NCBI RefSeq assembly: GCF_015330125.1
Contig: NZ_JADDXR010000002.1
Span: 3,174,685 to 3,238,684 of the forward strand
Direction of reading: 5' to 3'
Source of the DNA: Zobellia nedashkovskayae
GTDB taxonomy: Bacteria; Bacteroidota; Bacteroidia; Flavobacteriales; Flavobacteriaceae
DNA length: 64,000 nt
Shown: positions 3,577 to 62,426 of the stretch, piece after piece
How positions within the stretch are numbered: the stretch's first letter is position 1
Layout of the letters: every line of letters starts with the position of its first letter
The notes under the pieces: model-generated
Told to the model about the DNA's origin: nothing
Seen by the model: the letters and a program-made list of their open reading frames with translations, nothing else
The model's database searches: none
Position numbers and translations under genes: made by a program

Positions 3577-3586
3577 TTTATAGGGT

Positions 3587-5887: not shown

Positions 5888-5943
5888 TTTGTACTTTAGT
5901 AATTAGATTTGGTATTTTTTGGAGCGTAGTAAGTGATAACTAT

Positions 5944-7602: not shown

Positions 7603-7646
7603 TCTTTTGATGAATATACTATTAACTCTAATTTTCTGTAATTTAG

Positions 7647-7676
7647 AAATAGGGGGTAAACTAGAACCCCCTATTT
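7647..7676 (-). terminator. Strong hairpin between susD-like and symporter genes
   Basis: Perfect 10-base arms AAATAGGGGG (7647-7656) and CCCCCTATTT (7667-7676) enclose a 10-base loop. The hairpin lies just after the susD-like stop codon in the direction of transcription. The run of U after it is weak, so it may be a leaky terminator or an mRNA-stabilising 3' end that favours susCD over the downstream genes. Confidence 0.55.
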
Positions 7677-7706
7677 GAAAAAACTAACAAAAACTAACAA
7701 ACATTT

Positions 7707-9515: not shown

Positions 9516-9533
9516 TGTAAAGAAATTATACGA

Positions 9534-12500
9534 TTAGAATGTTACGTTAAGGCCCATAGTGAAAACTTTGGTAACAGGGTAAAAAGCACCACTGGAAAAC
9601 TGTGGGGTCAACGGGTCTATACCTTCAGGCATGTTATCCCAGGTAGCTAAGTTTTGCCCAGACAGATAGATACGTGCAGCTGAAATACTGAATTTATCCA
9701 ATACATCTCTAGGTATCTTATAGCCAAGAGTTATATTTCTTAGTCTTACATAAGAGGCATCATGCATCCAAGTTTCATTCACACGCCAGTTAGAGTGTGA
9801 ACTTCCTGGAGTTAAACGTGGATAGGCTGCACCTGTATTAGTAGGAGTCCAGTAATCCGTTTGCCATTCCTGAATTTTTCCAGCGTTAAAAAAGGCCCAA
9901 CCAGCATCACCTTGCAATACCACATCACGTCCTCCAGCTCCAAGTAATGATACTGAAAGGTCAAAACCTTTATAGGCAGAGAAAAGCTCTAATCCCCAAT
10001 TTTCAGTAGTAATGTCACTACCAATAATGGTACGGTCGTCATTTGTTATTGCTCCGTCTGGAACTCCATCAGGGCCAGAGATATCAGCATATTTTAAATC
10101 ACCCGCTTGGATTGCTCCAAATCCTGGCGATGGTAATGAACTATTAAGATTACCATCTACATCAAAATCGCTTTCTTGATAAAGTCCATCTACTTTTAGA
10201 CCGTATATAGAACCAATTTCTTCGCCAACACGGTTTATTGTGTTACCTGGAGGTAATTGATTTAGACCGCCCAAGTCTTTGATTTCGTTGTCAAAACCAG
10301 AGTAGTTAAGATTAACTCCGTAACGGAAATCTTCACCTATCGTATCGTTCCATCCAATACTAATATCGTATCCTGTGTTCCAAACTTCACCGGCATTCTG
10401 AACTGGAGCTTCTAGACCCACAGATGTTGGTATGGTAACACCTAAAAGAATATCTTTTGTTTTACGCACGTAATATTCGCCAGTAAAAGATAATTTACTG
10501 TTGAAAAATTTGGCATCCATAGCAACGTTTTGGGTTTCTCCGGTTTCCCATTGCAATTGTGAATTGGCCAAGACTGACTGGGCTCCACCTACTACCGGAG
10601 TACCTCCAATAACAGCATTGGCATTACCAAGACCGAAAAGAGAAGTATACGGGAAGTTTACCTCTTGAGCCACAGCTGAACCATCAGAACCTTGAATAAC
10701 ATCTCCGTTATTGTCCGTTCTGTTGGCTGCAAAAATGAACTGGTTTCCTAATTGTCCCCAAGATGCTCTTAATTTTAAAAAGTTGATGGTTTCATTATCC
10801 TGAAGAAATTTCTCTTCTGATACTACCCAACCCACAGAAAAGGAAGGAAAGGTTGCAGAACGGTAACCTTCAGCAAAACGTGAAGAAGCATCTTTTCTAA
10901 CATTGGCTTCAAAAAGATATTTGTTCTTGTACGTGTAGTTTATTCTTCCGAATAAAGACTCTAACCCGTTTAAGGTTGAATTACCAGAGTTTAGCTGTGT
11001 ATCTGGTAAACCGTTATCGAGACCTCTAAATTCGTCTAGAACAAATCCTCTTCTACTAGCGGACCATATTTCCGAATTGAATTTAAGAAATTCATAGCCT
11101 CCTAAAACCGAAACATTGTGGTCACCAAATTCTTTTCCCCAGTTAGCTACTGCGTTAAAGTTGTCTTGAAACGTGGTAAAGGTTTCCTTAAAAAGTGAAC
11201 TTTCTGAAATACCGCCACCTACAGTGCTTTGAGCAACACCGCCAGAACCTTCGTAATAGGTGTACCGTGCTCTAAAATCATCTTGGTCCCTGTCAAAAAA
11301 TTGTGGTGCATACGTTGCAGCAATTGAGAAATTGTTGAATGGTCTGTAAGTTACTTTGGCCAAAGCTCTAAAGTAATTTGAAACGGTTTCATCTTTTGCA
11401 GTAGAATTAGCTAGTGCAACGGGATTACTACCACCAAAACCGGAACCATAGGTGCCATCATCATTAAAAGCTACAAAGAGTGGCTGTAGACGGTATGCCG
11501 AACGAGTAAGATTATTTAAACGTGCGGGCTGACTTTTGACTTCTCTTCTGAAGTTAAGGTCAAATGCTAAGTCTAATTTTTTGCTAAGTGCATAATCTAG
11601 ATTAAACCTGCCATTATATCTTTGAAATTTAAAGTTTGGAATGTTACCGTCTTGATCGGTGAACGATATAGAGCTGGCTACTTTCAATTTTTCAGAACCA
11701 CCACGTACAGAAAGACTATGGTATTGCTGAATAGCAGCTGAATTGAATAGAAGACCAACCCAATCCGTATCTGGTAAGGCCTCTGAACCTACTCCGTTAC
11801 CCGAACGGTATTGGTTAAGTACGTCGTCAGAAAATGCACCAGGCTCAGCAGAGTTAAATGCTTCCATATACCCTAAAGCATCTGCGAATTGTAGATTTTG
11901 AGCAATGCTCTGTACCCCAACGTAAGTGTTGTAAGAGGTTGATATTTTCCCTTCCTTACCCCTTTTTGTAGTAATAAGAATTACACCGTTTGCCGCACGA
12001 GAACCATATATAGCCGAAGCCGAAGCATCCTTAAGAACAGAAATAGATTCAATATCACTAGGGTCTAAACCATTAATATCGTCAGGAATTCCATCAACTA
12101 AAATAAGTGGGTTGTTTTTTGCTCCGCTACCTAAAGTACCTACACCACGAATACGGATAGCTGCACCGTCTGAGCCCGGTTGACCACTAGATTGGGTTGC
12201 GGTAAGACCAGGAACAAGACCAGCTAGTGCTTGTGAAGCCTGTGCAACGGGTTGTTTTGCTATTTCTTCTGCCTTAACCGTTTCTACAGATCCAGTTAAG
12301 TTAACTGCTTTTTGGGTTCCGTACCCAACCACAACTACTTCGTCTAGTTGTGATGCTTCTTCAGCCATGGTAACGTTTAGTGTAGTTTGGCCGTTTACTG
12401 CTTTTTCAACAGTTCCGTAACCAATAGAACTGAAAACTAAGGTAGCCCCTTCTGGAATTTCAATACTAAAATTTCCATCAAAATCTGCTACAACCCCATT

Positions 12501-12641
12501 GGTCGTTCCTTTTTCAACAATGTTGGCAGCTGGTATGGGAATACCCTGTTTGTCGCTTACGATACCTGAGACCGTAATTTGGGCAGATATTTCACAAAGC
12601 GCGAATATCGATAAAAGAAAAAATAAAACTGCTTTTTTCAT
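9534..12641 (-). CDS. SusC/RagA-family TonB-linked outer membrane transporter
   Basis: The 1035-residue protein has a signal peptide (to about residue 20) and a carboxypeptidase-regulatory-like domain (about 22-100). The SusC TonB-box-like segment DEVVVVGYGTQ follows, then a plug domain containing IRIRGVGTLGS and the conserved DGIPDDINGLDPSDIESISVLKD region. A long beta-barrel ends in the aromatic strand TMGLNVTF, as outer membrane proteins do. It imports oligosaccharides using TonB energy together with the SusD partner. It is the first gene of the long minus-strand operon, and its upstream region carries a tandem 10-bp operator-like repeat shared with the operon at 18429. The divergent gntR-like gene starts 386 bases away. 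Confidence 0.97.
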   Translation of the reverse strand: MKKAVLFFLLSIFALCEISAQITVSGIVSDKQGIPIPAANIVEKGTTNGVVADFDGNFSIEIPEGATLVFSSIGYGTVEKAVNGQTTLNVTMAEEASQLDEVVVVGYGTQKAVNLTGSVETVKAEEIAKQPVAQASQALAGLVPGLTATQSSGQPGSDGAAIRIRGVGTLGSGAKNNPLILVDGIPDDINGLDPSDIESISVLKDASASAIYGSRAANGVILITTKRGKEGKISTSYNTYVGVQSIAQNLQFADALGYMEAFNSAEPGAFSDDVLNQYRSGNGVGSEALPDTDWVGLLFNSAAIQQYHSLSVRGGSEKLKVASSISFTDQDGNIPNFKFQRYNGRFNLDYALSKKLDLAFDLNFRREVKSQPARLNNLTRSAYRLQPLFVAFNDDGTYGSGFGGSNPVALANSTAKDETVSNYFRALAKVTYRPFNNFSIAATYAPQFFDRDQDDFRARYTYYEGSGGVAQSTVGGGISESSLFKETFTTFQDNFNAVANWGKEFGDHNVSVLGGYEFLKFNSEIWSASRRGFVLDEFRGLDNGLPDTQLNSGNSTLNGLESLFGRINYTYKNKYLFEANVRKDASSRFAEGYRSATFPSFSVGWVVSEEKFLQDNETINFLKLRASWGQLGNQFIFAANRTDNNGDVIQGSDGSAVAQEVNFPYTSLFGLGNANAVIGGTPVVGGAQSVLANSQLQWETGETQNVAMDAKFFNSKLSFTGEYYVRKTKDILLGVTIPTSVGLEAPVQNAGEVWNTGYDISIGWNDTIGEDFRYGVNLNYSGFDNEIKDLGGLNQLPPGNTINRVGEEIGSIYGLKVDGLYQESDFDVDGNLNSSLPSPGFGAIQAGDLKYADISGPDGVPDGAITNDDRTIIGSDITTENWGLELFSAYKGFDLSVSLLGAGGRDVVLQGDAGWAFFNAGKIQEWQTDYWTPTNTGAAYPRLTPGSSHSNWRVNETWMHDASYVRLRNITLGYKIPRDVLDKFSISAARIYLSGQNLATWDNMPEGIDPLTPQFSSGAFYPVTKVFTMGLNVTF

Positions 12642-13027: not shown

Positions 13028-14044
13028 ATGGTAAAACTTAGTATAGAAAAGAACTCAAAGAAGCCTAAATATCTTCTGCTTGCAGATAGTATTACTTCCC
13101 AAATTGAACAAAAGCAATTAGTTCTTGATGACAGGTTACCATCAGTAAACAAGCTCTCCGCTCATTTTAACTTTAGTCGTGAAACAGTTTTTAAAGCATT
13201 AAACTACCTAAGCGAAAAGGGAATTGTTAGGGCAGTGGACAAGATTGGTTATTTTGTGAACGACCTTTCCGTTGAGACAGAATTTAAGGTGTTCTTTTTG
13301 CTGGATAAATTAACACCTTTCAAAGAAGACTTGTATAATTCACTTATTTCAAGCTTGGGTGAAAATGTAAAGGTCCGCTTATATTTTCATCACCAAAACA
13401 TTGAACTTTTTGCGTCTCTAATTTTAGATAATCTCAAAAACTACACACACTTTATAGTTACCACATACATAGAGGATTCAAAATCTGTTCAGAAAGTGCT
13501 CAATAAAATACCACCCGAAAAATTGATTATTCTGGATAAATATGAGCCTAATGTCAACGATGGTTGTGGTATGGTTTTTCAAGATTTTGAGAATGACATT
13601 CTTAATCTATTAAAGGTAAATATTGATTTGGTTAACAAGTACGATAGGCTAGTACTTTTCAATCGTAAAAATGCGCCACACGGAGATTTTGTCCAAAAGG
13701 GTTTTGAACGATTTTGCACCGAATACAACTTTCAGAGTGAGGTGTATTATAATTTTTCTCCGGACTACTTTAAAAAAGGAACCCTTTACATCACCATTGA
13801 CGCCTATGACAGGGACATGGTGGAGATTATAAAATTGGCTCGTAAATTTAACTGGGAATTGGGTAAAGAAATTGGACTGATTAGTTACAATGATACCAGT
13901 ACCAAAGAAATTTTAGCTGGTGGTATATCAGTAATTAGTACTGACTTTAAGAAAATGGGAGAGGAGGCTGCCAAAATGATTTTGGAAGGCAGAAGGGAAC
14001 ATAAAAGCAATGAAACCAAGTTGATTTTAAGGAATTCGCTCTAA
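13028..14044 (+). CDS. GntR-type transcriptional regulator with LacI-like sugar-sensing domain
   Basis: Residues 1-75 form a GntR winged helix: DRLPSVNKLSAHFNFSRETV is the recognition helix-turn-helix, followed by a wing ending near IGYFVND. Residues about 85-335 resemble the periplasmic-binding-protein-like effector domain of LacI regulators (LISYNDTS and GGISVISTDF motifs near the end). The total length of 338 fits the GntR/LacI hybrid regulators found in Bacteroidota sugar loci, such as those for fucose. It is transcribed away from susC and faces the cstA-like gene tail to tail, with only 8 bases between the stops. I infer that it senses a galactan-derived sugar and controls the susC and 18429 operons through the shared tandem repeats. 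Confidence 0.9.
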   Translation: MVKLSIEKNSKKPKYLLLADSITSQIEQKQLVLDDRLPSVNKLSAHFNFSRETVFKALNYLSEKGIVRAVDKIGYFVNDLSVETEFKVFFLLDKLTPFKEDLYNSLISSLGENVKVRLYFHHQNIELFASLILDNLKNYTHFIVTTYIEDSKSVQKVLNKIPPEKLIILDKYEPNVNDGCGMVFQDFENDILNLLKVNIDLVNKYDRLVLFNRKNAPHGDFVQKGFERFCTEYNFQSEVYYNFSPDYFKKGTLYITIDAYDRDMVEIIKLARKFNWELGKEIGLISYNDTSTKEILAGGISVISTDFKKMGEEAAKMILEGRREHKSNETKLILRNSL

Positions 14045-14052
14045 AATATCAA

Positions 14053-15495
14053 TTACATCAGCTGTGTAAACACTTTTTTTCGTTGCACGGCATAATACCA
14101 AAATAGCATCGAAATTAGTATCGTTAACACAGCGCCCCCTATATAGGCAACGTTATTTTCTAATTCAAATCCTTCTGGCGCTATAAGAATGTACGTGGTA
14201 CATACCATGGTCATGAAAATTGCCGGAATGAGAGTTATCCAATAGAATTTATTCTCATAAATTAAATACGCGGTAATCGTCCACAGCACTACGGTGGCCA
14301 AGGTCTGATTACTCCATGCAAAATAGCGCCATATCATTCCAAAATCCATTTGGGTAAGTGCAAAAGCGACTATAAACAGAGGAATGCTGATATAAAGTCG
14401 ATTTTTTATTTTCTTTTGGTCAGTTTTAAAAATATCCGATAATATAAGTCTTGCAGAACGGAAAGCAGTATCGCCAGAGGTAATAGGAGCAGCTACAATA
14501 CCTAATAAGGCAAGAATACCACCAACTTTACCCAACATGTTTAAGGATATTTCATTGGCTGCCCATGCTGCGTTATTTCCGTTGGCGAGCATAGCATCAT
14601 TAAGACCTCCCACATCACCAAAAAACGTCATAGCTGCAGCAGCCCAAATTAGAGCCACGACACCTTCGGTAATCATAGTTCCAAAGAAAATTTTTCTACC
14701 TAGTCTTTCATTTTGCATGCAACGTGCCATGAGCGGCGATTGCGTAGCATGAAATCCAGATATGGCTCCACAAGCAATCGTAACAAAAAGTATAGGAAAG
14801 AGTGGTGTGGCTTCTGGGTCAGAAGTCATATTAATTAGATTGGCAGGTACCAACTCTGGAATATGATAATCACCAAAAAATAGTGCAATTAATAATCCTA
14901 AGGCCATAAGCAACATAGCGACCCCAAATACAGGGTAGATTTTGCCTATCATTTTGTCTATAGGTAAGAGAGTGGATAATATGTAATACACCAAGATTAT
15001 CCCGACCCAAATCCAAAGATTCCACATATTACCGGTCATCCCATCTATAATTTTTGCTGGGCCCATAAGGAAAACGGTACCCACAAAAATCAAAAGTATA
15101 ACGGTAAAATAACGCATGATATGTTTCATTCGTGGCCCCAAATAGATACCCACAATTTCGCTAATGCTTAGTCCGTTATGACGTACGGATAACATGCCTG
15201 AAAAATAATCGTGAACTGCTCCGGCAAAAATACTACCCAGCACTATCCATAAAAAAGCGGCAGGTCCAAACATTGCTCCGGCAATGGCACCAAAAATGGG
15301 GCCTAGACCGGCTATATTTAAAAACTGAATAAGAAATATACGCCAAGCGGGTAGGGGCATAAAATCTATGTCATCCCGTAATCGTATGGCAGGGGTTTCC
15401 CTTTCTGTATCAACACCAAAAATGTTTTCTACCAGTTTCCCATAGGTGTAATAACCCAGTATCAATACAAGAACAGAAATAATAAACGAAACCAT
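14053..15495 (-). CDS. CstA-family transporter (short form)
   Basis: This 480-residue polytopic membrane protein shows the CstA signature: an N-terminal GYYTYGKLVENIFG segment, FLNIAGLGPIFGAIAGAMFGP, the HDYFSGMLSVRHNGLS loop, and AISGFHATQSPLMARC in the middle. It is shorter than the roughly 700-residue Escherichia coli protein, lacking the extra C-terminal part, a form common in Bacteroidota. CstA relatives move peptides or pyruvate across the inner membrane. Its place as last gene of an operon with an exported flavoprotein and an FMN-binding-like protein is unusual. Uptake of pyruvate freed from pyruvylated algal galactan is one possible explanation, not shown by the sequence. Confidence 0.88.
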   Translation of the reverse strand: MVSFIISVLVLILGYYTYGKLVENIFGVDTERETPAIRLRDDIDFMPLPAWRIFLIQFLNIAGLGPIFGAIAGAMFGPAAFLWIVLGSIFAGAVHDYFSGMLSVRHNGLSISEIVGIYLGPRMKHIMRYFTVILLIFVGTVFLMGPAKIIDGMTGNMWNLWIWVGIILVYYILSTLLPIDKMIGKIYPVFGVAMLLMALGLLIALFFGDYHIPELVPANLINMTSDPEATPLFPILFVTIACGAISGFHATQSPLMARCMQNERLGRKIFFGTMITEGVVALIWAAAAMTFFGDVGGLNDAMLANGNNAAWAANEISLNMLGKVGGILALLGIVAAPITSGDTAFRSARLILSDIFKTDQKKIKNRLYISIPLFIVAFALTQMDFGMIWRYFAWSNQTLATVVLWTITAYLIYENKFYWITLIPAIFMTMVCTTYILIAPEGFELENNVAYIGGAVLTILISMLFWYYAVQRKKVFTQLM

Positions 15496-15520: not shown

Positions 15521-16639
15521 TTAGCTATTATCCTCTAGAAATTCAGTAACAAGGTATGCATTCTTCTCTTTATTGGATGCAGCAAACTGCTCAAGATTTT
15601 TTAATACTTCCGTGGAAATTACTTTTTTACTTCCTAGGTGTTCTAAGTATTTAAGTAGCTGATTTCTAGTAAGTACACTTAACTGCGTAGAGATATGCGT
15701 CACGGTAGCATCAGAAGCGAAATCAACATGTTGAAGCAATAAACTTCTGGTATTGATATCGATATAGGGAAGTGCATCCCAAAAAGGTTGCATGGTAGTT
15801 GGAGATTGTGAAAAAGAGTTTGCTAAATTTTTAATGATGAAAGAACGTACTAATGGAATACCTGATTTGAAAAGCTCCGATACTCTTGAAAAATTGACTT
15901 TATACTGATTTTGGTCAAGGTTTTCTAATGCATACATCTGATAATTGGTATGTTCACTATTCAGCATACGAACCAACATTTCTTCATTTAGCTGCTCAAC
16001 AGTATATGCTTTTAGTTGTTCTTTAATTTTACCGTGAACTAAATGCCAAGCTACGTAACATGAATATAGGGCGCCAGAGACAACAGATTCTTTCACCTCT
16101 TTTACAGTAGCGCCCGACAAGGCATCTACACCTTCAATTTTAGAAGGCTTGGGTTTGGTAACCAACTCGTCTATGGCTCTTCTCTTTAAGATTGAATTAT
16201 CATCTTTCAGCAAATCGTGAAGCTTCCAATAATCTGAGAACAAAAACTCATCGTGATCATGTTTGGTCAATGGCTCCTTAACTGAGCGGTCAAAACCAGC
16301 ATAATCACCCAAAAGTGTCCAATACAGTGTAATGTGCATAAATTTGCAATCTCCATCTGCACAGACAGGAGTTATAATGTTGGAGGAATATAAGATGGGC
16401 GCCTCTGTATTATCGCGAAATAAGTTTACTTTTTGAGCACCCACAGAATCCGTAATGATTTCCAATGGAGTTTCTGAAATGTGAAGCGCTGTATTTGGTT
16501 TCCAGTCCAATATAAAAAACTCCGGACTAGTCTCTAAAACAGTTTTTTCTTGACTATCAGAAAATGCGACAGGCGACCCAAATTGAGCATCACAAAAGTG
16601 GGTTACAAATAAAAGGAAGCCTAACGCAATTCGTATCAT
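15521..16639 (-). CDS. Secreted protein with FMN-binding-like motif and helical C-terminus, function unknown
   Basis: The 372-residue protein has a signal peptide ending near CDAQ. An N-terminal region (about 30-200) contains a Cys pair C93-x4-C98 and ends with GVDALSGATVKEV (about 170-182). The D-x-x-S-G-A-T core (Thr178) is the motif used by NqrC/RnfG-type FMN-binding domains for covalent attachment of FMN by ApbE. Residues about 210-365 look like repeated helical hairpins of HEAT type. The start overlaps the stop of the upstream FAD oxidoreductase gene by four bases (ATGA), implying coupled translation and a shared task. It may pass electrons from the exported oxidoreductase. The motif match is partial: the Ser or Thr often found two residues after SGAT is absent. 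Confidence 0.6.
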   Translation of the reverse strand: MIRIALGFLLFVTHFCDAQFGSPVAFSDSQEKTVLETSPEFFILDWKPNTALHISETPLEIITDSVGAQKVNLFRDNTEAPILYSSNIITPVCADGDCKFMHITLYWTLLGDYAGFDRSVKEPLTKHDHDEFLFSDYWKLHDLLKDDNSILKRRAIDELVTKPKPSKIEGVDALSGATVKEVKESVVSGALYSCYVAWHLVHGKIKEQLKAYTVEQLNEEMLVRMLNSEHTNYQMYALENLDQNQYKVNFSRVSELFKSGIPLVRSFIIKNLANSFSQSPTTMQPFWDALPYIDINTRSLLLQHVDFASDATVTHISTQLSVLTRNQLLKYLEHLGSKKVISTEVLKNLEQFAASNKEKNAYLVTEFLEDNS

Positions 16640-18429
16640 TTTTTGGAAGTCGGAATTTTTTCATATTTCTGCTCCTCTATTAAATCTAAATATTCTTGTA
16701 AATAACCCGTGTAAATTTCACGAGGCATAACTTCATATTTTTTGCAAAGCGAAGCCGCATAACCTACAGCAGCTCCCATTTGACCTGTAGTAAGCATAAC
16801 TCTAGGACCTCCAAGTCCGGCATGTGAGCAGCTGAAATTACGGCCGGCCATAAACAAGTTTTTAATATTCTTAGAGTACAAACTTCTATATGGAATATAG
16901 TATTGTGGACCCCTGTAGAATAACGCTTCAGAAATAAAATCTGGATTATTTTCATCCTCTAGAACAGTTTGATAATGTACATCTACCGCTCTTGTTTCGA
17001 TTACCACGCCATCAGGAAATTCTGTTCCTTCTTTGGCATTGTTGAAGGTGAAAATATGGTCTCCCACCAAACGTCTAGATTCTCTTTTACCTACTAGGTA
17101 TGATACCCATTCCAATTTTCGATTTTCGTTTACTTCGTCTTTTTTAGCACTGGAGAAAGAACCATAGATAGCGCGGAGCATGTGGTCGCGTATTTCTTCG
17201 GCATCATCAATCTGACTCAAATCGTTACGGCTAAACTCCCACTGCCATTCACCATTAACCTCGGAATAATCTTTAGAAACAGGCATGGCCCAAGGAACTT
17301 CAGGAAAACTCTGAGGACTATCTGTATCTTTAGAACCCCAAAGTACAGAAGAACCCATAACAGCATTATCTGCCTCTTTTGGACTCCATAATTCACCATG
17401 TTCTTCCCAATGTTCACCGTAGGTGTCAACACTTTCTCGACCGTATGAAAATTCGGCACCAGCCCAAAAACCTATCCAGCCATCTCCCGTAGAATCAACA
17501 AAGTAAGGAGCCGTAAATCGCTTTCTTTCTCCTGTAAAGGTTTGTCTCGCATCTACATATTTTACGCTGTTTTCTTCAGATAAAGCATCGTAAGCTCGCC
17601 AATTCAGGAATAAATCTATGTTGTCATAACTCTTAACATTTTTATCTCTTTTTTCCTGGTCTAGTTTGGCATCTGCTGAACCGTTTGGATAGTGTTCTGT
17701 ATCGATTTTCTTTAATATCCTCTCAAAATTACCGTAGATGCCTAAAGTATGAACACGAATTTCTTCACTTGCATTACCACCCAAAACAGGACGATCGTGT
17801 ATTAACGCAACTTTCAATCCCTGTTCTGCCCCAGCAATAGCTGCTGCACAACCCGCTAGACCGCCACCAACAACTACCAAATCATAAGATTTTACTTCTT
17901 CAGGAGCATTAGGTTGGGCCGTAATTTCTTGACGCCAAGCTGCTAACTTTTTAGTGGATGAGGGAGGTGTATCTTTTTTAGTTGAAAAATAGATGGCATC
18001 ACAACGTCCGTTAAAACCTGTAAGATCTTGTAATTCAATATGCGTAGCTTGCTTTTTGTTGATTTTGGCCTCACCGGCATATTGCCATCCCCAACCAGAG
18101 CGGGTTCCTAAAACGGTATCTAATACCGTTTCGCCTACTTTTAATTGGAATCTTCCCGGTGCTTCCCATTCACCTGGAACCCAATTCATGGTGCGTACCC
18201 AGATATGATATGTACCCGATTTTTTGAATTCTACAGCAGTAGAAGCATTTTTTACCGGTTTACCCATGCCGTGCGCATTGAGGTAGGGCGATCCCATTTG
18301 TTCTACGAACTGTGGGTCTACGACCCAACCACCGGGATTATCAAAACTTTCAGCTTCTAAAAGGATGTCTTGTGCTACTGCATTGAGCGAAGCGATAAAG
18401 AGGATGAGGACGGTCAGTAAATTTTTCAT
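16636..18429 (-). CDS. Exported FAD-dependent oxidoreductase with N-terminal sugar-binding-like domain
   Basis: A signal peptide ends at AVAQ (residue 20). Residues about 21-150 form a beta-sandwich of carbohydrate-binding type (LLEAESFDNPGGW and a GRCDAIYFS final strand). The flavoprotein begins at YDLVVVGGGLAGCAAA (182-197) and has the signature DRPVLGGNASEEIR, as in the paralogue at 3587-5887. A second FAD region, GRNFSCSHAGLGGPRVMLT, lies near the C-terminus. The protein would act in the periplasm or at the surface, which is uncommon for FAD enzymes exported by Sec; no twin-arginine signal is seen. It is the first gene of a three-gene operon and probably oxidises a sugar unit of the algal glycan. 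Electron acceptor unknown. Confidence 0.86.
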   Translation of the reverse strand: MKNLLTVLILFIASLNAVAQDILLEAESFDNPGGWVVDPQFVEQMGSPYLNAHGMGKPVKNASTAVEFKKSGTYHIWVRTMNWVPGEWEAPGRFQLKVGETVLDTVLGTRSGWGWQYAGEAKINKKQATHIELQDLTGFNGRCDAIYFSTKKDTPPSSTKKLAAWRQEITAQPNAPEEVKSYDLVVVGGGLAGCAAAIAGAEQGLKVALIHDRPVLGGNASEEIRVHTLGIYGNFERILKKIDTEHYPNGSADAKLDQEKRDKNVKSYDNIDLFLNWRAYDALSEENSVKYVDARQTFTGERKRFTAPYFVDSTGDGWIGFWAGAEFSYGRESVDTYGEHWEEHGELWSPKEADNAVMGSSVLWGSKDTDSPQSFPEVPWAMPVSKDYSEVNGEWQWEFSRNDLSQIDDAEEIRDHMLRAIYGSFSSAKKDEVNENRKLEWVSYLVGKRESRRLVGDHIFTFNNAKEGTEFPDGVVIETRAVDVHYQTVLEDENNPDFISEALFYRGPQYYIPYRSLYSKNIKNLFMAGRNFSCSHAGLGGPRVMLTTGQMGAAVGYAASLCKKYEVMPREIYTGYLQEYLDLIEEQKYEKIPTSKK

Positions 18430-18462
18430 AAAGTATAATGTTCTGTATCAGGACGAAATAAA

Positions 18463-18482
18463 TCTAGTACGGTCTAGTACGG
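18463..18482 (-). promoter_or_regulatory. Tandem 10-bp operator-like repeat upstream of the exported oxidoreductase operon
   Basis: TCTAGTACGG occurs twice without a gap (18463-18472 and 18473-18482, plus-strand reading), 33 bases before the ATG at 18429. In the direction of transcription a TATATTTA element, one base from the TAnnTTTG consensus, lies just upstream, so the repeat would cover the transcription start region. The half-site TCTAGT and the 10-base period are shared with 12708-12727. Confidence 0.62.
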
Positions 18483-18602
18483 TTTATGTAAATATATAAA
18501 ATTATTTTTAATCTAATTATTTACCTTTAAATAATTGATGTTAATATATTTTTGGGTCAGATTTTGAATATTTATTAGTGAGGGGAGTTTTAAGTTGTTT
18601 AT

Positions 18603-18636
18603 AAAAAAAAATCCCAAGGCTATACCTGGGGGATTT
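18603..18636 (-). terminator. Rho-independent terminator after the GH2 gene (block C)
   Basis: Read on the minus strand, AATCCCCCAGG, a short loop and CCTTGGGATT form a stem followed by a run of nine T (the A-tract at 18603-18611 on plus). It lies about 24 bases after the GH2 stop codon and separates block C from the operon starting at 18429. Confidence 0.75.
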
Positions 18637-18659
18637 ATAGAATACTTAATGCTATCTGT

Positions 18660-21575
18660 TTAATGCCATTCACTCAGAATAAAACTATTGAGCCAAACTG
18701 CTTTTTCATCCGAGCCTTTAAAGATAAATCGAATTTTATTTTCCCCATCCGACTCAAAATAAATTTCGGTGGGTTTAAAAGGTGTAGTCTGCATAGTTTC
18801 CCCTTCGGTTACTGTTATGTTCGATAGGGTAAAGGAACCATTTGCATCAATAATAGTAACACCAATTTCTTTGGCATATGGAATCCTATAGATTTTATAA
18901 GTAGCCATTTTTTCTTGATTAGGGTCCATACTATCTGTATTGGTTCTTGGTGCATGATGAACCGTATTCAACTTATATTTTCCCTTTTTCAATCCTGAAA
19001 ATTCTAAGGTCAGTCCTTCTTTTGACACACCCAGAACCCCTTCGCCATGAGCGAAACCATATTTGCCAATAACATTTATTTCACCTAACCAACGGGTTGA
19101 GCTAGCATCACCATTACTTTGAACGGTAGCGGAGAAACCACCAAGCTCTTCAAATTGCTTTGTAGAGGCAGCATTGTCTTTACCATTCCAAGGAGTCCAA
19201 TCAAACTGAACTAATTGTTCATCTCCTCCTAAATCTACCCGAAGCGTTTCAAAATCATAGATTGGCTTTGCGTTTGCAGCTATCACATCAAAATTAGCTT
19301 TTACGGTTGCAATCGTTGCGGAGGCGGATTTCAGACCTTTTGCTTTAGCTGTAATCGTAATCTCACTGGGAGAATTACCTGCGCGAATCAATACTGGGGC
19401 AACACCATATTGTGTTGGCATAGGATTGGAACCAATACCTTCCTTATCGCCAATAATTTCTGCATCGCCCTTTATAGCGAATTCTATAGCTGTGTTAGTA
19501 TCACCCAGTAGTGTGCCGTTTCTATCTAGCACCTTTGCATAAATCACAAGAATATCAGAACCATCGGCAACAAATTCTCGGCCTTCGGTATCAGGTTCAA
19601 GAATTATTTTATAAGCGGCTTCCGGTGTTTGCGTAGTTTGAGAAACAACAACTTTACCGTCAAGCAAGCCGTTGGCAGTAAGTTTTCCTTTTTCATATTG
19701 TGGGATAGAAAATACGAACGGCGCATGTTTTAAATATTTGTATTTATCTGCTTTTGAAGGGTGTTGTGCTGCAATGGTCTTACCGTTCACTTTTAATTCC
19801 ACTTTCTCAGAATTGCTGAACACGACCACTTCTTTAGTACCTTCTTTCCAATCGGTATTAATATGGAGATAAGGATAATCGGTTAGTTCGGCGGGATACC
19901 AGGCCAGATTTTCTTCGGGACGCGGGTAGCGGAAAGCGGTCATAAAACCGCCTCGACTTCTATCTTTTGGCGTGTCGGTAGGATGAAAAGTATAATAGGC
20001 ATGTGCGGTCCATGATATGAGACCCAATTTCATGGGACTGTTCATATATTCATTAATAGCCTCAGGACCACGACGCCCTTCCATTGCTAGCATGGGTTCA
20101 TCTCCACTCCAATAATAGGGTCCATATACCATTTGCCCATAAATATCTGTTAAACCAGAGGTTTGCCAACCCGTCCAACGGCTACTTTGCGAAGCGGTAT
20201 ATCTAAACGGGTCTTCTTGTTTAATTACATTGTGAGCCCTTGGAACATAACCCCTGTGATTGATACCAGCTCCCCAGACAAAAACGGAAGTGTGGTTTCT
20301 ATGGTTTCTGACCATAGTTCTTGCTGCTTTTTCGAAATTATCGAACCAAGCCTCATTACCGATGGACATCCATGTTGGGGCCTCTTCATATACCAGCATA
20401 CCCAGTTCGTCACAGGCTTCTAGCAAAGAATTGTCATGTGGGTAATGTGCCGTTCGGATAACATTCATTCCCAGTTTTTTTAATTGCAGAATATCTTTAT
20501 AATGCAAAGAATTGGGCATGGCATCACCTATAAAACCGTAGTGTTGGTGCAAATTGGTGCCAATGAGTTTTATGGGTTTTCCGTTCAGGACTATGCCGTC
20601 ATGGTTGTTCATTTCAATTTTCCTGAATCCCGTTTTAACTTCTACTTGGTCCACAGCCTTATCATCCTCTAGAACTAACGTATGTACTCGGTAGAGGTTA
20701 GGTTCATCTATAGACCAAAGTTTTAGATTATCTTCTATACTGCCAATGAGGTTAAAAAGAACATCGGCTCCTGCTGGAATAGTTTTGGTCTGCTTTAGTT
20801 TTAATACGACTAAACCTTTAGCATCTATTACTCTGCTTAAAACGGTAGTCTTTTTAGATTGAATATTTTCATTACGAACCGTAGTTTTAATGTTGATAGT
20901 AGCATTAAGATTAACTGGATCTACGGTTGGCGTAGTAATGTATTGACCTGCATTTTCAGCTTCCCAATTAAAAGTTATGTGTAGTGGATTAGTTTCTACT
21001 AAATACACATCGCGATACAGGCCAGCGAACTTAATATAGTCCATTGGACCAGGGTCTGGTGGAATATCATCTCGTTTTCTGTTATCGGCTAAAACCGTTA
21101 CAAGGTTCTTTTCACCTCGATTTACAAAATCCGTAATATCAAAGTGGAAAGGAGTATAGCCTCCAACAGCATGCTGGCCAATATGCTTACCGTTTACCCA
21201 AACATCCGTTACCTGATGAACACCTTCAAACTCAAGAAATACCTTGTTGTTCGTGTTTTCTGAAACCTGAATTTCTTTACGATACCAGCCTACTTTACGC
21301 ATAAATGTATCTTGGTACTTATCATCTTGAACCCCGTTGAGGTCCATAGTAGTAAGTTCCAATCCGTGAGGCACAGTAACTGTTTCCCAATTGGAATCAT
21401 CCGTATCCAATTTAAAAAAATCGGCATCTGGATCACCCAAATGGAATTTCCATCCTTGGTTGATATTTAGTTTGGAACGGTCCGTTTTTGTAAACCCTTC
21501 TGGTAAAGTTGTATGTTGCCCCCAAGCTATTGCCGTAAACAATAGTGCACAGAGCATTAATCTGTAAAGCTTCAT
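18660..21575 (-). CDS. GH2-family protein lacking the canonical acid/base Glu
   Basis: The 971-residue protein has a signal peptide (to about 19), a GH2 sugar-binding jelly roll (about 35-195), an Ig-like domain (about 205-315) and a TIM barrel (about 320-590). Beta-rich C-terminal domains follow, including an Ig-like one near 670-760 and a sandwich near 790-970. The barrel motif that normally reads NHPS-x-x-x-W-S-x-G-N-E is NHTSVFVWGAGINH, so His440 replaces the catalytic acid/base. The nucleophile Glu appears kept in LAMEGRR (Glu499). It may be a glycosidase using other acid help, or a binding protein. Its gene follows the cytochrome c dehydrogenase gene by 27 bases. Confidence 0.88.
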   Translation of the reverse strand: MKLYRLMLCALLFTAIAWGQHTTLPEGFTKTDRSKLNINQGWKFHLGDPDADFFKLDTDDSNWETVTVPHGLELTTMDLNGVQDDKYQDTFMRKVGWYRKEIQVSENTNNKVFLEFEGVHQVTDVWVNGKHIGQHAVGGYTPFHFDITDFVNRGEKNLVTVLADNRKRDDIPPDPGPMDYIKFAGLYRDVYLVETNPLHITFNWEAENAGQYITTPTVDPVNLNATINIKTTVRNENIQSKKTTVLSRVIDAKGLVVLKLKQTKTIPAGADVLFNLIGSIEDNLKLWSIDEPNLYRVHTLVLEDDKAVDQVEVKTGFRKIEMNNHDGIVLNGKPIKLIGTNLHQHYGFIGDAMPNSLHYKDILQLKKLGMNVIRTAHYPHDNSLLEACDELGMLVYEEAPTWMSIGNEAWFDNFEKAARTMVRNHRNHTSVFVWGAGINHRGYVPRAHNVIKQEDPFRYTASQSSRWTGWQTSGLTDIYGQMVYGPYYWSGDEPMLAMEGRRGPEAINEYMNSPMKLGLISWTAHAYYTFHPTDTPKDRSRGGFMTAFRYPRPEENLAWYPAELTDYPYLHINTDWKEGTKEVVVFSNSEKVELKVNGKTIAAQHPSKADKYKYLKHAPFVFSIPQYEKGKLTANGLLDGKVVVSQTTQTPEAAYKIILEPDTEGREFVADGSDILVIYAKVLDRNGTLLGDTNTAIEFAIKGDAEIIGDKEGIGSNPMPTQYGVAPVLIRAGNSPSEITITAKAKGLKSASATIATVKANFDVIAANAKPIYDFETLRVDLGGDEQLVQFDWTPWNGKDNAASTKQFEELGGFSATVQSNGDASSTRWLGEINVIGKYGFAHGEGVLGVSKEGLTLEFSGLKKGKYKLNTVHHAPRTNTDSMDPNQEKMATYKIYRIPYAKEIGVTIIDANGSFTLSNITVTEGETMQTTPFKPTEIYFESDGENKIRFIFKGSDEKAVWLNSFILSEWH

Positions 21576-21602
21576 TCTATAATGTTCTTTAATGAAAATT
21601 GT

Positions 21603-23864
21603 TTATTTACTCTTTTCAAGCTCTTCAATCGTCCAATAATCTTCTCGGTCTTCTTGGTCTTTTCGAACTTTACTGACTTGCCATCCACCAACACCTTTTT
21701 CGTTGTTCAAGTGCATTCGGATATAAGTGACCACGCTGGCAATGTAATCATCGTCCTGTTGTTTCATACCCGCCATAACACCGGAATATTCTTTACCGTC
21801 CACAGGTCCGGTAAGTCCATTTAGGAGAATTTTCACTGGAATATTCCAATCTTTGGCAGTTACTCTAGGAGAGCCTACCAATGATGGAGCCATTCCTTCA
21901 ATACCCGTGCCGTTTATGCCGTGGCAAGCAGCGCAGAGATTTTTAAAATTGTTGTAGCCCTCCACAATTCTCTTTCTTGTATTACTGTTTTGTAAAACAT
22001 ACTGTTTTTTAATTTTCTCTATTTCTAAAGGAACCGCCTTTAAGCTTTCTTCACCAATAGTTGCAATTGCTTCATTATTTGGGTTAGCCACCATAATTTC
22101 AGAAATGATTTCTTTTCCCATTTTGTCTTTAGCTGAATTTAAAGAAAGGACTACTTGTTGTAAAACCTCTGGCTCTTTATCACTCTTTAAAGCCTGAACG
22201 GCTTCAAAAACATTCGCATCTCCAGATTTTAAAAATGGTTCACTTACGCGTAAGGCTGCTGCACGTACACGCGCATCTTCATCTTGTAAAGCAGCTAGAA
22301 CAACAAGTTTGTCAATAGCATCAAGACCATCTAGCGTCCAGATAGCATGAAGTCTACCTAGGGCATAATCGGCATCGTCTAACATAGAACCTATAAAAGG
22401 AGTTCCACCAGTAACCATATCTTTCAAATCAGAAACGATACTTTTATCTTGTTTTAGAACCAATACTTTCTGTGCTGTAAGACGGTACCAACCGTTAGGG
22501 TGATGTAGGTATTCTAATAGCTCATCATTAGTTTTATGCAACAAATCTTCTTGTTTTGAAGGAGCTATTTCATCATGTACTATTCTATAAATTCTACCTT
22601 TCCCAATATTCTTGTCAAAACCTTTTCTTTCTACCACGGGGCGTAAAAAACTACCTTTTCTAACCCAGTTACCCTCTTGGATAATACCGCGGTACATGTC
22701 AACTACGTACAGACAACCGTCAGGACCAGTCCGTGTATCAACCGGTCTAAAGTTGGTATCCGTAGATGCCAAGAATTCCGTTTCGCCATAAGGATTAGAC
22801 AATACTTTTTTCCCGTTTACCAAGTTCACTTTCGCACGGCGAATTAAACGACCAACCGGTTCTGGAATAAAAAGGTCTCCGTACATAGGTAGTTTATCTC
22901 CCAAGAATATAGACTGCCCACAACTTGCCGTAAAATGGTTGAGTGTACCGTCTTCTCGAAGCCTATGAAGACCGCCCTGCACATCTGGTGTTCCAATTAT
23001 GGGCCACACTTTTTCAAAACCTTCTTCCCATTTGCCTTCCATTTCTAGATTGCCATAATAGGGATGTTGTTGATAGCCCAATGCGGGTGTTTCGCCACCT
23101 GCGCTGGAATAGTAAAGTTGACCAACTTCATCTTGTGTCATACCCCATTGTCCTGAAGGCGCATCTCTGAGGGTGTCAATTTCCATTTCATCCCTAGTAA
23201 AACGGTATCGTAACGAACCGTTGGATAAATAGAGGTAGTTATCCAATCCCCATATCATTGTTGCAGATTGGTGCTCTAGATTTGCATTGTCCCTTTTGTT
23301 ATTTTCAAGTACTAATTTCTTTTCGTCAGCAACATTATCACCATCAGTATCTCTGTAGTTATAAAGACTACGGTTATAGGTCTCGCCAATAAGGACGCGG
23401 TCATCTAACGGAAGTATAATCCTTGGAAGAATTAAGCTGTCCACAAAAACGGTGCTTTTGTCCATTTTTCCGTCACCATCAGTATCTTCAAGAACGGAAA
23501 CCCTACTCCAAGGTTCATTTTCATCGGTTCCGTCAATATCTTGCATGTATGTCAGCATTTCAGCAACGTAAAGTTTCCCGTCTGGCCCCCAAGCAATAGT
23601 AACTGGTTCATTAATCATGGGTTCACTGGCTACCAACTCCATGTGATAACCCTCGGGAAGATGCATGGTTTTCATACTCTCTTCTGGAGACATAAAAACA
23701 ACTGGTGGGTCCTTTACGAGTGTTGGTTTGGTATAAATAACATCTGCATAGACCGGTTTTTCTTTTTTACAACTGCCAAGAGTGAATAGTACAAGGGCAG
23801 AAGTAACGAAGAGACTTTTTTGTATTGTAGAACGATTTGTTAACTGGTAAAATAATTGGTTCAT
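21603..23864 (-). CDS. PVC-type cytochrome c, beta-propeller dehydrogenase lipoprotein
   Basis: A lipoprotein signal with lipobox LGSC starts this 753-residue protein. About residues 60-430 form a beta-propeller of the membrane-bound dehydrogenase type (HLPEGYHMELVASEP, WGPDGKLYVAEM, GPDGCLYVVDMYRG). Two TSP3-like calcium loops (DTDGDGKMD, DTDGDNVAD) sit in the propeller. HEAT-like helices cover about 450-630. A cytochrome c domain with heme motif C644-A-A-C-H648 follows and a Met-rich segment (VMAGM) may supply the axial ligand. Proteins of this design are thought to oxidise sugars or alcohols at the membrane and pass electrons to respiration. Its place next to a GH2 gene inside a galactan PUL suggests sugar oxidation in the periplasm. 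Confidence 0.9.
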   Translation of the reverse strand: MNQLFYQLTNRSTIQKSLFVTSALVLFTLGSCKKEKPVYADVIYTKPTLVKDPPVVFMSPEESMKTMHLPEGYHMELVASEPMINEPVTIAWGPDGKLYVAEMLTYMQDIDGTDENEPWSRVSVLEDTDGDGKMDKSTVFVDSLILPRIILPLDDRVLIGETYNRSLYNYRDTDGDNVADEKKLVLENNKRDNANLEHQSATMIWGLDNYLYLSNGSLRYRFTRDEMEIDTLRDAPSGQWGMTQDEVGQLYYSSAGGETPALGYQQHPYYGNLEMEGKWEEGFEKVWPIIGTPDVQGGLHRLREDGTLNHFTASCGQSIFLGDKLPMYGDLFIPEPVGRLIRRAKVNLVNGKKVLSNPYGETEFLASTDTNFRPVDTRTGPDGCLYVVDMYRGIIQEGNWVRKGSFLRPVVERKGFDKNIGKGRIYRIVHDEIAPSKQEDLLHKTNDELLEYLHHPNGWYRLTAQKVLVLKQDKSIVSDLKDMVTGGTPFIGSMLDDADYALGRLHAIWTLDGLDAIDKLVVLAALQDEDARVRAAALRVSEPFLKSGDANVFEAVQALKSDKEPEVLQQVVLSLNSAKDKMGKEIISEIMVANPNNEAIATIGEESLKAVPLEIEKIKKQYVLQNSNTRKRIVEGYNNFKNLCAACHGINGTGIEGMAPSLVGSPRVTAKDWNIPVKILLNGLTGPVDGKEYSGVMAGMKQQDDDYIASVVTYIRMHLNNEKGVGGWQVSKVRKDQEDREDYWTIEELEKSK

Positions 23865-26893: not shown

Positions 26894-27300
26894 TTAAAAA
26901 AGTGTAGTTCCTCCATTGGTGTTTAAGTCCAGATAGGTCTCTTGCATTTTTTGTATACGCTCTGCTTGCCCGGGCTCATTAATTAGGTTTTTGTTTTTCT
27001 TCTCTTGTACATTGTCCTTTAAATCATACAGTTCAATTGCTTTTAGTCCTTTTAGGTTTTCTTACTATCCGCTATCATGATTAGTTTAAAATTACCTTCG
27101 CGAATGGCATGAAAAGGACCCATTCATCATACCATTTTGCTTCTTTTAGGTTTGGTGTATCAGAGGCGAAAAAATAATCGCCATCAGGCTTGTAGATTTG
27201 TACATATTCATTGGCCTGTTGTGGAATTAATGGCTTTTCTTTAGCATAGGTTCCTATATAAGAAAGTAAAATGGAAAGGAATATATATGCTAGTTTTCAT
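26894..27300 (-). pseudogene. Decayed fusion: glycosidase N-terminus joined to sulfatase C-terminus
   Basis: The ATG at 27300 overlaps the GH117 stop, but its frame stops after 19 codons. Shifting by one base gives a signal peptide (YIFLSILLSYIGTYAKEKP) and then YVQIYKPDGDYFFASDTPN and KWYDEWV, an opening like that of secreted five-bladed-propeller glycosidases. After another shift MGPFHAIREGNFKLIMIAD appears. After a third shift comes ELYDLKDN, then QAERIQKMQETY, typical of sulfatase C-termini, ending at a TAA at 26894-26896. Two ancestral genes therefore seem to have been fused by a deletion and then frameshifted. Nothing else is seen between 26815 and 26893. Confidence 0.7.
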
Positions 27301-28552
27301 TTAATTGTTTTGTTCCATTATTCACACGCTCACGCTGTTTGGCATTCAGACCATGCTCTAATAAATACTCGAACTTAGGAGTGTTATGGTGGCGTTTCAT
27401 TTGCTGGTCATCAACATCTAGGCTAAGGTCGCAATCAAAACGGACTAATACCACATGGTTTTTTTTCCAGTCGCGCGTAGGGTTGGCAAAATGTGAAATT
27501 CCCCAAGTAATTCCACGACCATCTTTGGTATCTGTAAAAGCATCGGCAACGAAAGGTCCTCCGGCATCTGGCATCATTTCTACCATAGAAGCGATTTCAA
27601 AATTTACCCAATCTTCGGCATATTGTATGGTATTGGCCTCATTACCATCTCTAATGGCAAAAGCGGCTACCCCTTTTTTAAATGGAAATAAAGTGGTCTC
27701 GTGTCCTGAATTTAGTATAGGGTTCAAACGATGTTTTGTAAACGGACCTAACGGATCATCTGCAAAGGCAAGACCGTGCATACGTACATTGTTCTTACCG
27801 TTAACTTTACCAAAATCTGATTTGTAGTATAGGTATATCTTACCGTTGTGTACTATAGGGTAGGGGTCGTGAATTGAAAACTGGTCCCAAGAACCGGGTG
27901 CGCCGTTAGGTATTACTTCTTTCTTAAAAGGTGTCCAAGGACCGTTTGGAGAATCGGCATAAGAAACTGCGACCGGACAATTGTCTCCGCCACTTTTTCC
28001 GGGTGCTTCGGAAAAAGCTTGGTAGTATAAATAGTATTTCCCTTTCCACTTTAAAATATCGGTCGTGGTAACCGAACGCCAACCTACTTGTGGTTTTGGA
28101 GGCCTAGGAATCGCAACACCTTGCTCTTCCCAAGTAAACCCGTCTTTTGATGTCGCGTAGAAAATATCGGCTAAATCCCAATCTGCAGAGGGAATAGTGT
28201 CATTAGATTCTTCAACCCTTGGAATGCCTACTGGAGCTACAGGGGTTTCACGGTGAGTGTACCATATATAATATTGGCCATTTTCAAAAATCACTTTGGA
28301 AGGGTCACGGCGAGAAATAGTACCGTCATTACCGTTGTAATCAAAGCCTTTGAGCTCTGTATATTTAAACTGGGTATACAACTCATTGCTTTCCTGACGA
28401 GGGCCTAAATAATTATCATAATTACGGTTTAATGCGGCACTTAAGGGTCTATTCGGTTTTTCTTCTGGTAGATCAAAGGGAAAAGCTTTTTTTTGACTGT
28501 ATGAAGTAAGAAAACCGCTTAGGGCCAATAGTGTAAAAATAATTCGTTTCAT
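27290..28552 (-). CDS. GH117 alpha-1,3-(3,6-anhydro)-L-galactosidase-like enzyme
   Basis: The 420-residue protein has a signal peptide ending at SYSQ, an N-terminal helical segment (SAALNRNYDNY, used for domain-swapped dimers in GH117) and a five-bladed propeller. The expected active-site residues are all visible: Asp83 in SRRDPSKV, Asp229 in SIHDPYP, and His284/Glu285 in SGHETT. Characterised GH117 enzymes remove non-reducing terminal 3,6-anhydro-L-galactose from neoagaro-oligosaccharides, although some paralogues in marine Flavobacteriia do not and their substrates are unknown. It is the strongest marker that this locus targets agar-type galactan. The gene lies 54 bases after GH16. Confidence 0.92.
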   Translation of the reverse strand: MKRIIFTLLALSGFLTSYSQKKAFPFDLPEEKPNRPLSAALNRNYDNYLGPRQESNELYTQFKYTELKGFDYNGNDGTISRRDPSKVIFENGQYYIWYTHRETPVAPVGIPRVEESNDTIPSADWDLADIFYATSKDGFTWEEQGVAIPRPPKPQVGWRSVTTTDILKWKGKYYLYYQAFSEAPGKSGGDNCPVAVSYADSPNGPWTPFKKEVIPNGAPGSWDQFSIHDPYPIVHNGKIYLYYKSDFGKVNGKNNVRMHGLAFADDPLGPFTKHRLNPILNSGHETTLFPFKKGVAAFAIRDGNEANTIQYAEDWVNFEIASMVEMMPDAGGPFVADAFTDTKDGRGITWGISHFANPTRDWKKNHVVLVRFDCDLSLDVDDQQMKRHHNTPKFEYLLEHGLNAKQRERVNNGTKQLNEN

Positions 28553-62397: not shown

Positions 62398-62426
62398 AAA
62401 AACGTTTCCCAAAAAACCAAATAACC

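Follow-up and report, generated by a model that had tools for sequence, protein, structure and literature searches.

Glycan breakdown by marine Bacteroidota has so far been described mostly by means of hydrolases, lyases and sulfatases. Does a redox step outside the cytosol belong to it as well? This question is raised by a locus of Zobellia nedashkovskayae that occupies about 1–47 kb of the 64,000 nt stretch of DNA analysed here (in the following the window; contig NZ_JADDXR010000002.1, positions 3,174,685 to 3,238,684, in a genome of 4.94 Mb rated 100% complete). The locus looks like a porphyran-type utilisation locus, judged by its gene content, and holds two adjoining genes, one for a flavin adenine dinucleotide (FAD) oxidoreductase of 597 amino acids (aa) and one for a flavin mononucleotide (FMN)-like protein of 372 aa. 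In these two, together with a cytochrome c lipoprotein, a second FAD paralogue and a DUF1080 protein, an earlier note on this DNA had seen one possible path that oxidises a galactan unit and splits its bond without a classical glycosidase. Re-reading of the open reading frames (ORFs) confirmed the FMN-like, FAD and cytochrome genes, all on the minus strand, at the places listed here and further below. We think it rather likely that the first two encode a two-protein redox module, in which an exported FAD oxidoreductase is served by an electron carrier of its own, probably with covalently bound flavin. Such a conserved exported flavoprotein pair in glycan loci suggests a redox step outside the cytosol, which could feed electrons straight to respiration. 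The pair comprises:

16636–18429, minus strand: exported FAD oxidoreductase, 597 aa, an N-terminal region of about 150 residues followed by PF12831 (residues 183–581; PF12831 profile)
15521–16639, minus strand: candidate FMN-like electron carrier, 372 aa, with a signal-peptide-like start, a beta-rich N-terminal part, a motif and a C-terminal solenoid
16636–16639, minus strand: 4 bp start/stop overlap (ATGA) of the FMN-like start with the FAD stop, translational coupling

The FAD oxidoreductase and its neighbour

The 597 aa protein is a member of PF12831: it matches the profile with 209 bits (cut-off 27), residues 183–581 falling on profile positions 1–416, and the Rossmann-type GGGLAG for FAD is present in the translation. 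This genome has 13 PF12831 matches, only two of which span the profile, and both are inside the window. The coupling of the FMN-like gene to the FAD gene, already proposed in the earlier note, is borne out by the ATGA overlap.

How constant is this arrangement? A scan of contigs from GTDB genomes yielded 49 loci with close relatives of the 372 aa protein, with flanks of about 8–10 kb. In 48 of these an orthologue of the 597 aa enzyme (FAD597, 64–99% identical) is located directly upstream of the FMN-like gene; in the 49th (L047) the contig begins 128 bp upstream of the FMN-like match. Between the stop of the FAD gene and the start of the FMN-like gene, the offset amounts to -4 bp in 29 of the 48 loci, falls between -4 and 9 bp in 34 and never exceeds 82 bp. 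The reciprocal search, with E up to 1e-120 and three candidates scored per genome, found 22 FAD597 orthologues in 21 of 397 Flavobacteriaceae genomes, all 22 of them no more than 102 bp from an FMN-like match; these counts are lower bounds. Since the contig set and the whole-genome set overlap, the two adjacency counts are not independent; loci L125 and L126 have sequence in common with L019 and L050. Furthermore, the pairwise distances of the FAD enzymes and of the FMN-like proteins co-vary (r 0.93 over 46 loci, a value reached in none of 2000 permutations), to which common descent of the loci contributes. The FAD enzyme is the better conserved of the two, with a mean identity of 0.74 versus 0.46 for its partner. 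In two genomes, G258 and G343, the FAD597 orthologues show in-frame stops, and the adjoining FMN-like match is free of them.

More distant members were found with an FMN-like profile, which gave at least 47 matches in 40 of the 397 Flavobacteriaceae genomes, 26 of them diverged; in these whole-genome searches 5 or 4 candidates were scored per genome and the counts are, again, lower bounds. An FAD oxidoreductase is the direct neighbour of the FMN-like gene in 23 of 25 diverged loci, once as a FAD597 orthologue (L124) and 22 times as another enzyme of 451–454, 614 or 640–655 aa. The 26th diverged locus (L139) gave no ORF match and is left out of the 25; judged by coordinates, an FAD match lies about 0.7 kb away there.

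Both partners carry export-type starts. By a simple rule, a hydrophobic N-terminus is present in 46 of the 49 close and 23 of the 26 further FMN-like members, a rule that is automatic and rough. Applied to the FAD proteins, such a rule took 19 of the 26 that adjoin an FMN-like gene as exported, missed twin-arginine starts and wrongly included two 614 aa proteins that have no signal; of 41 non-adjacent FAD proteins, recognised by profile in 40 loci, it took 10 as exported and again overlooked evident signals. Among the 26 FAD proteins adjoining an FMN-like gene in the diverged set, 22 have a twin-arginine-like start, two a Sec-like one and two neither.

PF12831 enzymes of different length classes differ in how often they have such a neighbour. 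For the 150 PF12831 matches listed, an FMN-like match lies within 1 kb in 2 of 16 cases at 440–505 aa, 2 of 56 at 540–606 aa, 3 of 25 at 606–640 aa, 17 of 28 at 640–690 aa and 0 of 25 at 750 aa or more. By these counts, the FMN-like partner goes with certain PF12831 subfamilies. Export was tried as a mark of the FMN-linked enzymes and is not a clean one. The YGGTSAG-type group (about 540–606 aa) breaks the rule: signal- or lipoprotein-like starts, read by eye, are frequent in it, and only the two of 56 just mentioned lie within 1 kb.

In which direction would the electrons run? Among solved structures, flavocytochrome c fumarate reductases match the FAD enzyme best, but the match is confined to about 50 residues of its FAD-binding stretch. 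They would suit a reversed use of the same pair: membrane electrons would pass through FMN to FAD, and outside the cytosol the enzyme would use them to reduce a sugar product (keto, unsaturated or anhydro) or some other acceptor. We hold this to be unlikely, since only 37 residues of the enzyme match FAD_binding_2, whereas PF12831 is matched in full, and since these marine flavobacteria have the pair in loci for sugar degradation, where oxidation would be the usual course. Oxidation of a sugar by the FAD enzyme is plausible, as a judgement from the locus setting.

The 372 aa protein and its candidate flavinylation motif

The partner protein has no Pfam match even at E 10 and no NCBIfam match. 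Its nearest named relative among the homologues listed, from Zobellia barbeyronii, is 95% identical, and homologues from named sources in these tables (the best 120 of 178, 225 and 160 matches) are annotated as hypothetical protein, HEAT repeat-containing or Vitellogenin domain-containing. Two elements are conserved in its sequence:

16106–16126, minus strand: candidate ApbE flavinylation motif D172-A-L-S-G-A-T178 (alignment conservation, DNA motif match)
16346–16363, minus strand: cysteine pair C93-x4-C98, each residue present in 119 of 119 close sequences and in 25 and 26, respectively, of 26 in the diverged alignment

The ApbE motif is defined as D-x-x-[S/T]-G-A-[S/T] in the accessible text of PMC12052999, and DALSGAT fits this definition. 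The label "FMN-binding-like", which the earlier note had given to the protein, has its basis in this motif and finds no counterpart in Pfam. The window protein was aligned with the 118 homologues, out of 120 listed, that reach 330 aa or more, and here the motif residues Asp, Gly, Ala and Thr are invariant (119/119); the strict motif is present in 98 sequences, and the remaining 21 read D-x-x-A-G-A-T. The NqrC of this genome, recognised as such from its nqr operon and an FMN_bind match, likewise has the variant D-A-L-A-G-A-T. A second alignment of 26 rows (the window protein, 24 diverged sequences and one L030 paralogue) reaches down to about 20% identity. Here, Asp and Thr are found in all 26 rows, Gly in 25 and Ala in 24, and several Trp, Gly, Lys and Phe positions are kept as well; ten columns are invariant, the motif Asp and Thr among them. 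The motif gives 23 six-frame DNA matches in the 4.94 Mb genome versus 11 in a reversed control, therefore, by simple arithmetic, the chance for one reading frame of this length is below about 1 in 1,000.

Three ApbE genes are present in this genome. One of them lies beside a DUF3570 gene (locus L062, 5789–8306), and another (L063) is near thioredoxin-like and Rieske proteins.

The AlphaFold model of the 372 aa protein, with a predicted local distance difference test (pLDDT) of 85, consists of the beta-rich N-terminal part, helices, the motif loop and the C-terminal solenoid. Comparisons by Foldseek and VIA-align matched it to helical repeats, almost exclusively over its C-terminal half, where a HEAT/ARM-like solenoid covers about residues 217–372, the range of the structure-search matches. 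No FMN_bind structure is among the fold matches listed, lists which the solenoid filled, and the N-terminal part was hardly compared.

Could the protein be a HEAT-repeat scaffold or a maturation factor for exported PF12831 enzymes, not flavinylated at all and with the motif as a structural loop? The solenoid itself speaks for this, as does the fact that homology to the FMN_bind fold is not shown by profile or fold comparison and that three of the 26 members deviate in the motif core. Asp and Thr, on the other hand, are invariant down to about 20% identity, and two members (L147:2916–5100; L148:7741–13429), both with a shorter tail, have no FAD partner that a scaffold could serve and lie near CxxCH proteins. 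On balance we regard a scaffold as quite improbable. The CxxCH-bearing proteins of L147 and L148 are lipoprotein-like, one or two genes away from the FMN-like gene, and accompanied by a DUF5777 or porin-type outer-membrane protein, in L148 also by a DHOR dihaem-type protein. They have no Pfam match; that they carry haem is a guess from the motif.

Several observations weigh against a flavinylated carrier that is dedicated to the FAD enzyme. The motif loop is modelled with a pLDDT below 50, and the predicted structure of the FAD enzyme is poor (pLDDT 56) and unusable. The deviating motif cores in 3 of 26 aligned members read SAT, GET and GST. A profile comparison by hhalign with classical FMN_bind, represented by a thin profile built from 10 of 30 FMN_bind loci, aligned 24 columns around the motif only, and the Pfam FMN_bind domain (PF04205) was hit in 3 of 26 members, sub-threshold, with a best E of 0.002; with such matches the family may be a diverged FMN_bind domain as well as a separate invention. 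Two of the three ApbE genes adjoin other targets, one in the nqr operon and the other beside DUF3570, and the 881 ORFs in 75 loci of the FMN-like family, within flanks of about 8–10 kb, include no ApbE gene. Finally, an FMN-like match lies within 1 kb of only 24 of the 150 PF12831 matches listed, so that such enzymes are found without the partner, too. Five exported members of the same subfamily (L173–L176 and L179) do not adjoin an FMN-like gene, though their genomes do hold one, in one case 2.8 kb away.

The galactan locus and its other redox genes

Around the pair, the window has the following features:

3587–5887, minus strand: second PF12831 protein, 766 aa (profile match; no signal peptide seen in the N-terminus read by eye)
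5944–7602, minus strand: SSF symporter (profile match; present in 12 of 49 loci)
7707–12641, minus strand: SusD (7707–9515) and SusC (9534–12641) (profile match)
13028–14044, plus strand: GntR-type regulator (profile match)
14053–15495, minus strand: CstA-family transporter, a frequent third gene of the module (profile match; direct neighbour of the FMN-like gene in 19 of the 49 close loci and in 2 of the 25 diverged ones)
18660–21575, minus strand: glycoside hydrolase (GH) of family GH2, located between the genes for the FAD enzyme and the cytochrome (present in 5 of 49 loci)
21603–23864, minus strand: lipoprotein-like protein, 753 aa, with DUF7133 propeller, HEAT and cytochrome c parts (Pfam; TIGR02604)
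27290–28552, minus strand: GH117-type hydrolase (PDB 4u6d, 4u6b and anhydro-galactosidases)
28607–29884, minus strand: GH16, closest to beta-porphyranases (PDB 4awd, E 1e-51; 3juu; 4ate)
45619–46368, minus strand: DUF1080 protein, outside the conserved pair (profile match)

By profile scan, the locus at about 1–47 kb contains SusC/SusD, a GntR-type regulator, GH97, two GH2, four GH29-type proteins, two GH28, a GH117-type enzyme, one GH16 and four sulfatases. All components of a porphyran utilisation locus, namely SusC/SusD, a porphyranase-type GH16, GH117, GH29, GH2 and sulfatases, are thus present. The porphyran-type label was chosen because the GH16 is closest to beta-porphyranases and the GH117 is nearest to 4u6d/4u6b. 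Together with the pairing, these two enzymes support that part of the earlier proposal which placed an exported FAD oxidoreductase and a flavin-carrier-like partner in a red-algal galactan locus. Two further ORFs of the window deserve mention. An esterase-like ORF (2692–3651) overlaps the end of the 766 aa FAD gene by 65 bp, with a similar layout in locus L021. At 49105–63359 an ORF of 4430 aa ends in a CHU_C type IX secretion signal and is followed by a PorP/SprF-type protein; from these features we take its product as a very large surface protein secreted by the type IX system that has nothing to do with the flavoprotein pair.

Which of the other genes accompany the pair elsewhere? Within 10 kb flanks of the 49 loci, cluster counts are 20 for CstA, 12 for SSF, 11 for SusC and 10 for the FAD766 type, and sulfatases, GH16, GH117 and GH127 occur around the module. 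Near the diverged pairs, sulfatases account for 19 of 107 neighbours and Gfo/Idh proteins for four, the neighbours being ORFs within three genes, minus the FAD and FMN-like proteins and those above 900 aa. A protein of about 1121 aa with FG-GAP/UnbV_ASPIC recurs in 11 of the 49 loci (e.g. L019:12567–15932).

As a fixed member of the system, the cytochrome c lipoprotein finds no support in the other genomes. A DUF7133-cytochrome c protein is found within 10 kb in 5 of the 49 loci, all from Zobellia, with a weak relative in L133. As an obligate partner of the flavin pair it was therefore dropped, and we keep it as a local option in Zobellia. A CxxCH motif is present in 15 of the 881 ORFs of the 75 loci, five of these being the Zobellia cytochrome, and an enrichment near the pair is not obvious. 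The propeller-cytochrome c protein may instead be a self-contained quinoprotein-type dehydrogenase for another sugar and a mere neighbour of the pair. It has a haem domain of its own, a GH2 gene next to it and company of the pair only in Zobellia, and this genome has five DUF7133 matches over the cut-off. Set against this are its position on the strand of the GH2 gene, 27 bp apart, the fact that all 5 Zobellia loci have kept it close to the pair, and an analogue in the distant locus L124. There (4050–10419), a FAD597 orthologue, the FMN-like gene and a gene for a 1134 aa ThuA-GSDH-PKD-cytochrome c protein follow in a row, and this is a second case of a propeller cytochrome next to the pair. 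We find the case for a self-contained dehydrogenase evenly balanced.

The second FAD paralogue and the DUF1080 protein are indeed encoded where they had been reported, and matched their profiles. The 766 aa paralogue was rejected as a second exported FMN-linked enzyme, having neither a signal peptide by eye nor an FMN-like neighbour; from its length class of 750 aa or more, two of the 25 listed lie within 2.5 kb of an FMN-like match. DUF1080, too, was rejected as a close conserved member of the pair's system. Among the 881 ORFs of the 75 loci there is one DUF1080 protein, and this one is beside a Gfo/Idh oxidoreductase; a gene 29 kb from the pair, as in the window, where it is 21.8 kb beyond the cytochrome gene, falls outside a count with flanks of about 8–10 kb. 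Of the 16 PF06439 matches that this genome has, the window's DUF1080 protein is the weakest. Where the pair is present, in 21 genomes, there are 9 to 30 DUF1080 matches per genome, which makes 377 in all; for the check per genome the best 150 of the 377 were listed, and weak ones such as that of the window are outside this list. With so many copies per genome, one DUF1080 gene in a large locus or a 64 kb window is to be expected fairly often by chance and is, therefore, weak evidence.

These results bear on the complete route of the earlier note, in which the FAD paralogues oxidise a galactan unit, DUF1080 splits the 3-keto-glycoside and the electrons pass through FMN to the propeller cytochrome c. 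All its genes lie within one 47 kb locus, and in L124 an FAD enzyme, an FMN protein and a ThuA-GSDH-cytochrome c protein stand in a row. ThuA hints at keto-sugar chemistry. A DUF1080 3-keto-glycoside hydrolase is linked to the LacABC glucoside 3-dehydrogenase in lactose use, according to the accessible text of PMC9007349. The route has against it the 5 of 49 loci for the DUF7133-cytochrome c protein, the 1 of 75 for DUF1080 with its 9 to 30 copies per genome, and the lack of a GMC dehydrogenase domain in the 29 window proteins scanned; the combination of the LacABC route, a GMC-type dehydrogenase with DUF1080 nearby, was not found among these 29 proteins. We consider it very improbable, and splitting of the bond without a glycosidase gained no support in this analysis. 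Among the parts of the route, the FAD enzyme and the FMN-like protein are the only two conserved together in the loci compared, within flanks of about 8–10 kb.

The proposed route and known systems

How might the pair work? The 597 aa PF12831 enzyme would bind FAD and probably act as a dehydrogenase. Its substrate might be a sugar unit or an oligosaccharide freed in the periplasm from the sulfated galactan. FMN would be put on T178 of the 372 aa partner by ApbE, and the partner would receive electrons from FAD and hand them on to the respiratory chain, with a haem protein as intermediary if one is available. CstA, SSF or another transporter could then import the product. We infer covalent FMN, formation of a complex and electron flow from FAD to FMN; least certain are oxidation rather than reduction of the sugar, the substrate, the cargo of the transporter and the final acceptor. 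As a tentative proposal, nearly as probable as its opposite, the 372 aa family would be a new class of ApbE substrates, a HEAT-tailed covalent-FMN carrier for exported PF12831 oxidoreductases, and marine Bacteroidota would thus run a respiratory oxidative step in the periplasm during sulfated-glycan breakdown. This idea stands or falls on T178.

The flavinylated proteins named in the accessible text of PMC8238504, PMC12052999 and PMC10979944 comprise FMN_bind (NqrC, RnfG, PplA), NqrB/RnfD, DUF2271, DUF3570, Flavodoxin_4 and FMN_red. The 372 aa protein resembles these ApbE substrates in its export-type start, its Asp/Thr motif and an ApbE encoded in the genome. It differs from them in its FMN_bind similarity, which by profile comparison covers the region of the motif and no full domain, its HEAT tail, the absence of apbE from the 75 loci and its link to FAD oxidoreductases in glycan loci. 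As far as described in the accessible text of these sources, screens for ApbE substrates started from apbE neighbourhoods or known domains. With no apbE in the 75 loci, neighbourhood screens would therefore miss the family.

Exported reductases of the fumarate/urocanate type are composed of FAD_binding_2 and FMN_bind. In common with them, the pair has an FAD enzyme part and a candidate covalent-FMN part outside the cytosol. The ApbE-linked FAD enzymes described in the accessible text of PMC10979944 serve anaerobic respiration as reductases; they belong to the fumarate/urocanate kind and contain covalent FMN. Unlike these, the pair is made of two genes and not of a fusion, belongs to PF12831 and not in full to FAD_binding_2, and is located in sugar loci.

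With the LacABC/DUF1080 system the pair would share an oxidoreductase acting on sugars in the periplasm, which for the pair is a prediction. LacA is a GMC flavoprotein. In the window no GMC domain is found among the 29 scanned proteins, and DUF1080 is not beside the pair. Oxidoreductases have also been described from Zobellia genomes or red-algal galactan loci, a setting shared with the pair: AA3/GMC glycoside oxidoreductases of Zobellia (PMC6950322) and carrageenan-locus oxidoreductases abbreviated AA3, FR/SR and OXR (PMC5698469). The accessible text of these two papers names no FMN-type partner and does not state PF12831 membership for FR/SR. Literature joining flavinylation, FMN-binding or FAD-dependent oxidoreductases with polysaccharide loci, in a search that leaves preprints and most subscription papers outside its scope, comprised work on laminarin genes of Maribacter and on a hot spring, and the titles and opening abstract lines of both do not point to such a pair; for PF12831 only a Brucella flavoproteome came up. 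Compared with all these systems, the enzyme superfamily is known, whereas the candidate carrier family that would serve it, and the setting, would be new.

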